Positions 1-9,841 of a stretch of 59,271 bases of DNA are shown in pieces (position 1 is the stretch's first letter; each line of letters starts with the position of its first letter). A program made the translations under genes and the position numbers. The notes beneath the pieces were generated by a model. That model was not told the DNA's origin. It saw nothing but the letters and a program-made list of their open reading frames with translations, and searched no databases. Source of the DNA: Luteitalea sp. (lineage in GTDB: Bacteria; Acidobacteriota; Vicinamibacteria; Vicinamibacterales; Vicinamibacteraceae). Where the stretch lies: contig WHTT01000039.1 in assembly GCA_009377605.1 (NCBI GenBank), positions 1-59,271 of the forward strand, read 5' to 3'.

Positions 1-1047
1 TGACGCCCAGGCGACCGACATCGACAAACAACGCGCCATCGCCCTTGGTGTACGAAGGCAGCACGTCTCCTAGCTCGAACGTCAGGCGCCGGCCGACATA
101 CGTGATGCCGCCCGCGACGCCGACACGCCATTGTGCGCGGGTGAGCACGTCATAGCGCGCCCACAGATTCGCGGCATTTCGTGGATTGTTCTCCGCGGCC
201 TTGCCAACGTTGGCAGGATCGACGTCGCGGGTGACCTCGGCGCGAAAACTGTGCGTGTAGTTGGCGTACATGCTGAGCGCTCGCGTGACGTGCCCGGCGA
301 CGTCGAGCTCGACGCCGCGGCTCTCGAACGCACCGACCGGCACGTAGCGGTCCGGCAGCTCTGGCGTCGGACTCCGGAGCAGCATGTCGTGCTTTGCGGC
401 CCCTTCACGACCTCCACTCGCTCCACATTCAGCAAGCGCGGTTTCACGAAGAAGTCGTGCACCTGATTCAGGCCGTCGACCTTCACCGACTCGTCTTGCG
501 CCCGAAAGCCGCGGAAGTTGAAGTCGAGATACTCGCTGAACATGGTGACGCCGCTGGCGTTGCGCAACGCGTCGTTGAGATAGACGGCGCCCTGATCCTG
601 CGTCAGATCTTTGTTGATGACCTGGATCGACTGCGGCAAATGCCGCAGCTCCGACGACGTACGTGTGGAGGTCAGGCTTCGGCGGACCGCGTAGCCATCT
701 TCGACGCCCGCGACCCGCTCGAAGACGTAGGCGCCTTCGTTGAGCGTGAGCGCCAGGGTGCGGGGCTGTCCGGCGGTGAGCTCGAGGGACTCTTCGGCCG
801 GCGCGAAGCCGGAGAGCGCCGCGCGGATTACGTACCGGCCGGGGCGCAAGCCGTCGATCTGAAAGCGGCCGTCGCCGTCGGTTGTCGTCTCGCGGGCCGT
901 ACCGTCGATCGTCACGACCACGCCAGGCAGCGCGGTGCCGGCTTCGTCGGTCACGTGACCGTTGATCACCACTCTGTCCGGCGTGTCGACCTGCGGGGGC
1001 GCAAGGTCGGGGATCACGAGCGTAAGAAGAAGACAGACCATCGACAT
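1..1047 (-). pseudogene. TonB-dependent siderophore receptor, internally deleted and frameshifted (3' end outside window)
   Basis: The 5' part encodes a signal peptide (MSMVCLLLTLVIPDLA), a carboxypeptidase-regulatory-like beta-sandwich (about residues 27-105) and the start of a TonB plug domain with the expected SELRHLPQSIQVI and VERVEVVKGP stretches. Directly after VEVVKGP (about position 397) that frame becomes arginine-rich nonsense. A different minus-strand frame then carries recognisable C-terminal barrel sequence (PDRYVPVGAFESRGVELD, then YANYTHSF and GGITYVGRRLTFELGDVLP) and runs off the window edge. The rest of the plug and most of the barrel, roughly 400 residues by family length, are therefore missing and the join is out of frame. 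Intact homologues import ferric siderophores across the outer membrane using TonB energy. ATG at 1047 is preferred over the GTG at 1056 because GGAGG lies 8 nt upstream of it. A misassembly could give the same picture. Confidence 0.85.
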
Positions 1048-1110: not shown

Positions 1111-1150
1111 AAGTGGTGATAGCCTATGCACCGAAAGGCGACCTGTCAAG

Positions 1151-1227
1151 TCGGATATCCACAGTCGGATATCCACAGTGAGATATCCTCGGCTGTCCTC
1201 GGGTGTCCCGTCTTGTGTCGGATATCC
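1151..1227. repeat. iterated GGATATCC motif
   Basis: TCGGATATCCACAG occurs twice in tandem (1151-1164 and 1165-1178), followed by TGAGATATCC (1179-1188) and another TCGGATATCC (1218-1227). Each core is itself palindromic. The cluster lies in the non-coding interval between the receptor promoter and the convergent end of the next gene. Its function is unknown; it could be a multi-site operator or a short tandem repeat. Confidence 0.6.
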
Positions 1228-1302
1228 CACGCAGCCGGAATTTTACGGTCGGTGTTCGAGGTCGGGATTCACGGTCGGGGACTTGTCTGTCGCTGCGCGT
1301 GT

Positions 1303-1659
1303 TTAGACGCGGCTGGTAGGGGCGAGGCGAGCCGCGATCCCGAAATACAGAAAGTACTTGCTCAGCGACTCGGCTGAGCCTGGTGGAGCATCGTTTGCAA
1401 AGAACAGTCGGCAGAATTCCTCGCGTGCGCGGAGCACCTCCCGGCGCCGTGGACCACGCCAGCGTTCGTCCGCGGCGGTCAAATCGAACAGCTCGAGCGC
1501 ACGCGTAATCGCCTCGTCGCGTCGTGCAACGCGATTGTTCTGATGGGCACGGATGGCGCGATCAACTTCCGAGCCGATGTTCGCAAATTGCTCGACGAGC
1601 GTGAGGGTTCGCCAGCGGCCAGCTGCCAGGCTCCGATGAACATTGGGGACAGTCTGCAT
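1303..1659 (-). CDS. conserved hypothetical protein, partner of DUF5674
   Basis: This is a 118-residue soluble protein that begins MQTVPNVHRSLAAGRWRTLTL. The start is fixed by a TGATG overlap with the upstream DUF5674 gene, whose stop shares bases with this ATG, so translation is probably coupled. The body is helical and charged, with a recognisable core (VEQFANIGSEVDRAI, ALELFDLTAADERWRGPRRREV, ESLSKYFLYFGIAAR). From memory of the family, similar 100-120 residue proteins are found next to DUF5674 in several phyla. I know of no assigned function and see no catalytic motif or export signal. A regulatory or toxin-antitoxin-like pair is possible but unproven. Confidence 0.75.
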   Translation of the reverse strand: MQTVPNVHRSLAAGRWRTLTLVEQFANIGSEVDRAIRAHQNNRVARRDEAITRALELFDLTAADERWRGPRRREVLRAREEFCRLFFANDAPPGSAESLSKYFLYFGIAARLAPTSRV

Positions 1660-1999
1660 CAGCCCACCACCAGTGAATGAACAATATCCTGGATCGCTCA
1701 CGCAGTGCCGGATCATCAACACCCCGCGAGCGGTTCGCTTGCCGAGGCCGGATGTTGATCATGGAATCGTACTCGATCTCTTCCTGCGCTGCTTCCCCCG
1801 TATAGAGGTTGATACCCCAGAGGTCCTCTTGGCGCGACCCGTCATCGAGCAGCAAGGCCTCCTCGTCCGAGTGTAGCTCACCACCGACCACCATGACGCG
1901 CCGTGCCACGTCGACCACTGCTTTCACCATATCGCCGAATTGGTCTTCCGCGATCGATGCCAGTTCCGACCGCCGAATGGGCTCTCTCACGATACGCAC
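1659..1999 (-). pseudogene. DUF5674 family protein with a single-base frameshift near its end
   Basis: The frame encodes VRIVREPIRRSELASIAE, FGDMVKAVVDV, VMVVGGELHSDEEALLL, GSRQEDLWGINLY and DSMINIRPRQANRSRGVDDPALRE, the characteristic blocks of DUF5674. After LRE it shifts: one base is missing around 1695-1697. Restoring it gives IQDIVHSLVVG and a stop at 1659-1661 that overlaps the next ATG. With that base the product is about 113 residues, the normal family length. The GTG start at 1999 is chosen because GGAGG sits 4 nt upstream and the family normally starts at this point. The function is unknown. It could be a true pseudogene or a sequencing indel. Confidence 0.8.
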
Positions 2000-2101
2000 C
2001 TTGCCTCCACGTCGCGTCCTGTCGCTTGACAACGCTACTTCGAAACGAAACCCGCCCCAACACGCCCGCCCGCGTCCATCGCCTTCCGTCGATTGACCAC
2101 G

Positions 2102-7825: not shown

Positions 7826-9841
7826 TCACTCATTGCTGAGCTCTTCCCACTCTTGAAGCAGTTTGCCCACCTCCCACATGAGCGCTTGATGCTGCTCGAT
7901 GACGGGGCGCGAGGCGTCGGGGGTCTGGTAGAAGCCGGGCTCGGCCATTTGCGCTTCGAGATCGCGGATCGCCTGTTCGCGCTCGGTGATCCGTGTTTCG
8001 AGCGTCGCAACGCGGGCGCGCTGCGCGTCGCGTGCCCGGCGCTGACGCCGTGCTTCGGCTTCAGCCCGCTTCCGCTCGTCGCGCGAGAGGACCTGATCGC
8101 TCTGCTCCGGCTGGCGGCTCCTGCTTTTTGATGCGGACGTGCCCGACCTCAAGGTCGGGACTCCAGGCGACGGCTGTTGCCTGTCTCTCGATCCCGGTTT
8201 TCCGTTTCCTGATGCCTGAATCCTGGTTGCCAATTCTTGATGAGTCTTGCTCCAGCGGAATTCTTCGTAGGTACCGGGATACACGACCGCTTGACCGTGG
8301 CCGATCTCGACGATCTTGGTGGCGAGCCGATCGATGAAGTAGCGATCGTGTGAGACGAGGACGAGCGTGCCACCGAAGTCCTCGAGCGCGTCGAGCAAGA
8401 CATCTTTCGAGTCGAGGTCGAGATGGTTCGTTGGCTCGTCGAGCAGGAGCGCGTTGGCGGGGCGAAGGAGCAACCGGGCCACGGCAAGCCGGGTGCGCTC
8501 GCCGCCGGACAGCACGCTCGCCTTCTTGTTCACATCGTCGCCGCTGAAGAGAAAGCCGCCGAGGATGTTGCGAATCATGGGCACCATGTGCATGGGCGAG
8601 CCGGCGGCCAGCGTCTCGTAGACGGTGAGAGGGGGATCCAGGCGTGCGGCTTCATCTTGCGCGAAATACTGCATGACGACTTGGTGGCCCTCTGCGCGAG
8701 ATCCAGTGTCGGGTGCCTCGACTCCGGCGAGGAGCCGCATGAGCGTCGATTTTCCGGCGCCGTTGGGACCGACCAGCGCAATGCGATCACCACGCTCCAC
8801 CAACAGGTCGAGGTGGCGAAAGACGCAGATGTCGCCGTAGGTCTTCGAAGCGCCGCCGAGCTCGATCACCGCGCGTCCACTCTTGGCGCACTGCGGAAAG
8901 GTGAAGTGCACACGCTTGCGCTCGGGCGGCACCTCGATGGGCACGATCTTGTCGAGCAGCTTGACGCGGCTCTGAACCTGCGCCGCCTTGGTGGCCTTGT
9001 AGCGAAAGCGATCGATGAACAGCTTGATGCGCGCGACCTCTTCGTCTTGCTCGCGCTTGAGCGTGCGAAGTCGCGCCATCCGCGCTTGGTGCTCTTCTAG
9101 ATACTCGCTGTAGTTGCCACGGTAGTCCGTGAGTGTGCGCAGGGTGAGGTCTGCAATGCGCGTGGCCACCGCGTCGAGGAAGTAGCGGTCGTGCGAGACG
9201 AGCAAGACGGCGTGCGGGTAGTCGACCAGATACTCTTCGAGCCAGTTCCGAGCCTCGAGATCGAGATGATTCGTGGGCTCGTCGAGCAGCAGGAGATTCG
9301 GCCGGCCGAGCAGCAGCTTCGCGAGCGCGATGCGCATCTGCCAGCCGCCCGAGAACGTCTCGACTGGGCGCTGCATGTCGTCTGGTGTGAACCCGAGGCC
9401 CTGCGCGACCGTGGCAATGCGGAGGTCGATGGTGTAGCCGTCTTGCGCGCGAAAGCCGTCCTGGAGGTCGCTGTAACGCAGGAGCATCGCATCGTGCTCG
9501 GCCTCCGGAATCGTGGCGTCGCCGAGTCGTTCTTCGAGTGCCGCCATCTCCAACTGCATGGCCACGAGCGGCGCGAAGGCGAGCCGCACTTCTTCGGCGA
9601 GCGTCCGCCCCGCGTGAACCACGCCGTCTTGCGGAAGGTAGCCAATGGTGAGCGCGGCGGGCTTGACGATCGTGCCCTGGTCCGCCTCTTCGAGGCCGGC
9701 CAGCATGCGGAAGAGCGTTGTCTTGCCGGCGCCGTTTGGACCGCACAGCGCCACGCGATCGCGCGCGCCGAGCTGCCAGGTCACATTGTCGAGGAGAACT
9801 CTATCGCCGAATGCCTTGGTGAGAGACTGGAGCTGAATCAT
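7826..9841 (-). CDS. ABC-F family ATPase with duplicated ATP-binding cassettes
   Basis: The 671-residue protein has two ABC domains in tandem and no membrane segments. Cassette 1 has GPNGAGKTT, the signature FSGGWQMRIALAKLLL and LLLLDEPTNHLD; cassette 2 has GPNGAGKST, LSGGERTRLAVARLLL and LLLDEPTNHLD. Between them is the P-site-tRNA-interaction-type linker (RFRYKATKAAQVQSRVKLLDKI). The C-terminus is a charged coiled coil (RDERKRAEAEARRQRRARD to WEELSNE). Such proteins act on ribosomes, in translation rescue or antibiotic protection; the Uup/YheS side of the family fits best. ATG at 9841 is chosen because cassette homology starts at MIQLQSLTKAFG. The stretch between cassette 2 and the coiled coil carries a REP-like hairpin and intergenic-type repeat words. 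Confidence 0.92.
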   Translation of the reverse strand: MIQLQSLTKAFGDRVLLDNVTWQLGARDRVALCGPNGAGKTTLFRMLAGLEEADQGTIVKPAALTIGYLPQDGVVHAGRTLAEEVRLAFAPLVAMQLEMAALEERLGDATIPEAEHDAMLLRYSDLQDGFRAQDGYTIDLRIATVAQGLGFTPDDMQRPVETFSGGWQMRIALAKLLLGRPNLLLLDEPTNHLDLEARNWLEEYLVDYPHAVLLVSHDRYFLDAVATRIADLTLRTLTDYRGNYSEYLEEHQARMARLRTLKREQDEEVARIKLFIDRFRYKATKAAQVQSRVKLLDKIVPIEVPPERKRVHFTFPQCAKSGRAVIELGGASKTYGDICVFRHLDLLVERGDRIALVGPNGAGKSTLMRLLAGVEAPDTGSRAEGHQVVMQYFAQDEAARLDPPLTVYETLAAGSPMHMVPMIRNILGGFLFSGDDVNKKASVLSGGERTRLAVARLLLRPANALLLDEPTNHLDLDSKDVLLDALEDFGGTLVLVSHDRYFIDRLATKIVEIGHGQAVVYPGTYEEFRWSKTHQELATRIQASGNGKPGSRDRQQPSPGVPTLRSGTSASKSRSRQPEQSDQVLSRDERKRAEAEARRQRRARDAQRARVATLETRITEREQAIRDLEAQMAEPGFYQTPDASRPVIEQHQALMWEVGKLLQEWEELSNE
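8142..8165 (-). repeat. REP-like hairpin inside the ABC-F coding sequence
   Basis: CCCGACCT-CA-AGGTCGGG (8142-8159) is a perfect 8-bp stem. Read on the minus strand it is preceded after a T by GGAG (8165-8162), one of the two tetranucleotide feet described for REP elements. It resembles the intergenic element at 19791-19813. It lies in frame and encodes part of the linker PGVPTLRSGTSASKS. Confidence 0.6.

Follow-up and report, generated by a model that had tools for sequence, protein, structure and literature searches.

A split receptor gene at the end of a contig

The window (the whole stretch of DNA analyzed, 59,271 bp) is the entire contig C39 of a Luteitalea draft genome of 6.79 Mb in 382 contigs. 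At its beginning lies the remnant of a TonB-dependent siderophore receptor, without working membership of that family. The locus comprises the following features, with "sister" denoting the genome of a second Luteitalea species.

1, no strand: terminal base of contig C39; neither the final 39 residues of the receptor nor the greater part of the downstream PepSY_TM gene could be located in the assembly
2–394, minus strand: strands from the late part of this receptor's barrel, read in a second frame that corresponds to sister residues ~621–752 and is open to the contig end
395–397, minus strand: the join, where three bases (minus-strand GCA) align with neither flank and 1213 bp present in the sister gene are absent
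398–1047, minus strand: 5′ part of the receptor with start codon, CarboxypepD_reg domain, and most of the plug, corresponding to sister residues 1–217 of 791
1092–1108, no strand: perfect palindrome TTGAGACTCAGTCTCAA, a probable iron-responsive operator, conserved in the sister and preceding other receptors
1121–1149, minus strand: TTGACA-17-TAGGCT, a possible promoter recognized by eye and near-identical in the sister (TAGCCT there)

The plug-bearing frame (window 388–1047, minus strand, 220 aa, ATG at 1047) has Pfam matches to CarboxypepD_reg (E 4.2e-21) and Plug (PF07715; E 9.1e-16). The Plug match spans positions 2–97 of 107 and scores 58.7 bits (cut-off 23.9), even though the domain is truncated at its end. 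The barrel-end frame (window 2–400, minus strand, 133 aa) is stop-free, with 132 codons from 397 to 2, and matches TonB_dep_Rec_b-barrel in Pfam (positions 300–414 of 436, E 3.8e-11). These positions are all that is left of the barrel, and they lie in a different frame from the plug piece, the two pieces occupying frames −1 and −3; a complete in-frame barrel is therefore lacking, compared with positions 9–436 in the sister protein. NCBIfam placed both pieces among siderophore receptors, with TIGR01783 scores of 37.8 and 38.2 bits that are far below the cut-off of 223.5, as expected of fragments. The remnant thus resembles TonB-dependent siderophore receptors (TIGR01783, PF07715, and PF00593) in that both pieces match these models, but differs in that residues 218–620 are gone, with the part beyond them shifted out of frame. 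A preliminary description of this DNA had named a siderophore-type receptor with its ends joined out of frame, and both points agree with these matches and frames. The description had also given the gene a span of 1–1047; the join within that span stands, but position 1 is the end of the contig rather than of the gene. Judging from titles, we found nothing on this receptor gene in the literature.

The intact sister orthologue and the missing middle

An intact version of the gene was found in WHTZ01000009.1 (contig C97 of G001), which belongs to the metagenome-assembled genome (MAG) of the sister species and served as our reference. This gene has 791 codons (L021 6001–8376), encodes a CarboxypepD_reg domain, a plug, and a barrel, and has a PepSY_TM gene after it. 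Protein identity between the window and the sister is 85% over residues 1–217 and 86% over residues 621–752; the corresponding DNA identities by BLAST are 83% (window 1159–398) and 85% (window 394–2). Identity stops at L021 6650 and restarts at 7864, leaving 1213 bp of sister DNA (L021 6651–7863) without a counterpart. The absent residues, 218–620 of 791, number 403, close to the ~400 estimated in the preliminary description. Assuming that the source gene was formerly of sister length, the net difference is 1210 bp, which is not a multiple of three and agrees with the change of frame. In the assembly as given, the locus thus combines an intact orthologue in a relative with a disabling lesion, as expected of a pseudogene.

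The lost middle was not found in the searchable part of the source assembly, where the best protein match was a paralogue on contig C51 (28%); at least the four short contigs that were retrieved (C200, C300, C381, and C382) read wholly as N and fell outside the search. When 40 genomes, including the source, were searched with each piece (cut-offs 1e-30 and 1e-12), matches were found only in the source and G001. A scan of the genome_contigs set returned two loci. One was the Luteitalea contig; at the other, in Fibrisoma limi, a 49-residue portion matched weakly (37%). The intact protein had matches at E ≤ 1e-60 in 11 of 193 genomes of the class, including the source and G001, with up to five candidates scored per genome. 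Among these candidates, the 11 places outside the source genome each gave one continuous match across most of the query; ten of them have 30–32% identity and are homologues of unproven orthology. The join was not seen in a second genome, either among the 40 genomes or among the 193 genomes of the class with up to five candidates scored in each.

For the downstream DNA, we used L021 6600–12651 as the query, for which 40 of 222 candidates were scored. Among these, window 2–394 was the sole match listed for the first 2988 bases of the query, and none was listed for L021 8257 to ~9587, a stretch of ~1.3 kb that comprises the receptor end and the bulk of the PepSY_TM gene. The final ~270 bp of this PepSY_TM gene lie at the extreme end of contig C45 (51,581 bp), with 76% identity. 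This contig carries a 10-N gap ~0.4 kb from its end, and the flanks of the gap share seven bases (CATTAGG). The window has no N at the join, which is 397 bp from the contig end.

Both pieces of the receptor appear to be under constraint. Relative to the sister, the front piece has a dN/dS of 0.132 and the back piece one of 0.137, and 13 neighbors picked from the 26 other matched genes have values of 0.045–0.169. Neither piece contains a stop. Signs of aging, such as relaxed constraint and secondary lesions, were not found, although a fresh pseudogene need not show them. Because both pieces look constrained and are stop-free, the break is either very recent or artificial; the word "recent" in the preliminary description is apt for the age, provided that the loss is real. 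We also compared 51 frames (at least 120 codons, GC3 at least 0.65) from positions 1–75,000 of the sister contig with the window. At >60% identity and with weaker pieces dropped, 27 of them were matched, some partly, and the receptor alone among these 27 has an internal loss. One other matched frame fell into two pieces in different frames; in our reading its start was extended in error, given that a better-conserved frame lies there on the opposite strand.

The palindrome and the other receptors of the genome

The preliminary description had placed a Fur-like box at this gene. A conserved, operator-like palindrome is indeed present, but at 1092–1108 it lies outside the span of 1–1047 given there. 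With up to two mismatches, the palindrome TTGAGACTNAGTCTCAA occurs at five places in the source genome and four in the sister genome, and the reversed control pattern occurs at none in both genomes. In the source, the palindrome precedes the broken receptor, the intact receptor on C51, a CbiX-receptor fusion on C55, a barrel fragment on C112, and a frame without Pfam match on C48. In the sister, the places are the orthologue, the fusion, a receptor on C77 that resembles that of C51, and one on C1, where the nearest frames look by eye like ribosomal protein S4 and a peptidase and a plug-bearing frame is ~1.7 kb off. The palindrome is mostly, though not exclusively, ahead of receptors. We presume that it resembles Fur boxes, and Fur may bind it. 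The possible promoter at 1121–1149 was not reported by a consensus scan. Immediately upstream of this promoter, at window 1149–1229, a 14-bp unit (AGTCGGATATCCAC, with variants) occurs four times. Synteny with the sister stops at these repeats, and the non-syntenic stretch is 3.4 kb here and 7.7 kb in the sister. Within this stretch and adjoining the broken receptor is a DUF5674 family gene (window 1562–2032, minus strand, E 9.3e-31).

The C51 receptor, which has 800 aa and a box of its own with one mismatch, is an intact paralogue of the kind that the preliminary description had suggested looking for; at 28–32% identity, it is a paralogue and not a second copy. The fusion is a frame of 925–935 aa in which an N-terminal CbiX/CbiK-type tetrapyrrole metal chelatase region is joined to a TonB-dependent receptor, with the palindrome just upstream of the frame or at its start in both genomes:

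L060 1210–3987, minus strand: CbiX-receptor fusion of the source (C55), plug and full barrel found
L061 1162–3969, plus strand: CbiX-receptor fusion of the sister (C38), CbiX and plug found in a scan of the first 519 residues

This domain arrangement suggests a possible role in removing or inserting metal at the outer membrane, e.g., with haem-like ligands. Judging from titles, we found no CbiX-receptor fusion in the literature. On C112, a frame of 190 codons (L063 2160–2732, plus strand) contains only a barrel end (Pfam positions 286–436), and its closest full receptors have 35–36% identity. The palindrome there has two mismatches and is located ~0.6 kb ahead of the fragment with a small frame in between, which it may serve.

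Among the 76 plug matches listed in the source genome, we classed 10 as broken receptors, the gene under study counted (C39, C79, C34, C60, C80, C14, C32:60665, C31, C67, and C32:37356). Within this set, C79 and C32:37356 were classed as broken from overlapping frames only, the second frame of C79 had no Pfam match at 0.001, and the plug of C67 scores below the cut-off. Receptors on C77 and C132 were left out of the count for being near contig ends, and the receptor on C16 looked whole. In G001, 4 of 79 had an open frame of <600 aa, a count based on length only and with one case near a contig end left out; among the other matched window genes, none of 26 was broken. The excess in the source, taken among the matches listed, is not significant in Fisher tests against G001 (p = 0.097) or the window genes (p = 0.061). 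Inside their contigs, C34 (L077) and C60 (L078) have plug and barrel in different frames, and C80 (L079) and C31 (L083) have the barrel part in another frame; these four are apparent frameshifts. Homopolymers of at least 5 bases were found in the frame overlap of one of five other broken receptors (C79). The C67 gene (L084 803–2209, plus strand) is a receptor-like frame of 469 aa with a normal front and, by eye, a last strand VRVGFALTF, but no scored barrel. It may be another receptor that has lost its middle, in this case in frame; no orthologue of it was found in G001, where the best match has 37% identity.

Origin of the join

We give a slight preference to a real and recent internal deletion of ~1.2 kb, carried either by the genome itself or by the strain that dominated the sampled population, and we put its chance barely above even. 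It ranks slightly above a false join, and either would be ordinary. Such a deletion would remove the plug end together with most of the barrel and shift the frame, such that the locus would yield no receptor and at best a product of ~320 residues with a frame-shifted tail; the upstream region and the palindrome would be left untouched. The join would then exist in DNA molecules and would have formed without long repeats, through end joining or slippage with homology of a few bases at most. In favor of this reading, the two pieces are orthologous to one gene with equal divergence, and the join has no N. Given that C45 received a 10-N gap with seven shared bases, the gapless join suggests that reads crossed it. 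Loss would also be tolerable in terms of redundancy, with at least 76 plug matches in the source genome. With dN/dS within the range of the neighbors and no stops, the loss would have to be very recent. Further receptors of the source genome appear broken well inside contigs, but these help little because they may be assembly errors themselves and their excess is not significant. Against a deletion stand the nearby contig end, beyond which ~1.3 kb of the operon was not found and which faces the gapped C45, and the fact that the internal loss is the sole one among the 27 matched frames; the assembly is troubled at just this place. Compared with known bacterial pseudogenes formed by internal deletion, the locus is alike in its intact relative, disabling loss with frame change, and retained upstream region, but unlike them it is known from assembly alone and lies beside an assembly gap.

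The competing explanation, to which we assign somewhat less than an even chance, is that the gene is intact in the organism and was falsely joined from a poorly covered or strain-mixed stretch; as part of the same explanation, the middle and the 3′ continuation would sit in unbinned or short contigs. PMC7111523 documents that draft metagenome bins can contain local errors and breaks driven by strain variation, and defines a local assembly error by a consensus that is without support from any read. The window resembles the errors described there in having a broken coding sequence near a contig end and a gap, and this explanation would also account for the missing operon DNA, the apparently full constraint on both pieces, and, through the all-N short contigs outside the search, the absence of the middle. 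However, the join differs from those errors in that no overlap or repeat accounts for it and no N marks it, read pairs with ordinary short inserts would hardly bridge a distance of 1.2 kb, and other receptors appear broken far from contig ends. The preliminary description had proposed misassembly across repeats as one option, which in the strict sense is not supported, as no repeat of at least 12 bp connects the break sites in the sister. The only such repeat near a break (L021 6690–6710 and 7848–7868, 81% alike and sharing ATCACGAAGCA) touches the right break site only. We rejected its collapse as the cause, since recombination would drop 1158 bp without changing the frame and would spare ~50 bp missing from the window. 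It is also conceivable, though rather unlikely and overlapping with the preferred deletion instead of adding to it, that intact and deleted alleles coexist in a mixed population, with the deleted path assembled and the contig ended nearby by branching. This would account together for why the join is gapless, why the contig ends nearby, and why constraint is retained, but the contig runs through the join instead of stopping there. The many receptors of the genome offer ample material for recombination or confusion, and a chimera of two different receptors is nevertheless extremely improbable; both pieces match one sister gene at 85–86%, and the next homologues in the source genome have 28–33% identity. 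We rejected a join with another receptor based on the single orthologue common to both pieces.

These results call for caution, as an apparent loss of iron uptake at a contig end, next to further missing sequence, should not be reported as biological without reads. If the break is real, the locus would represent a recent, clean pseudogene whose sister orthologue is intact, and it could help to date receptor loss in a lineage that carries many TonB receptors. A broader and quite doubtful view is that the large receptor set is in rapid turnover, in which deletions and frameshifts would silence receptors while their promoters stay, with the window gene freshly lost; the driver would perhaps be phages or bacteriocins that enter via the receptors. 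If such turnover is true, strains of one species would differ in their working iron receptors.
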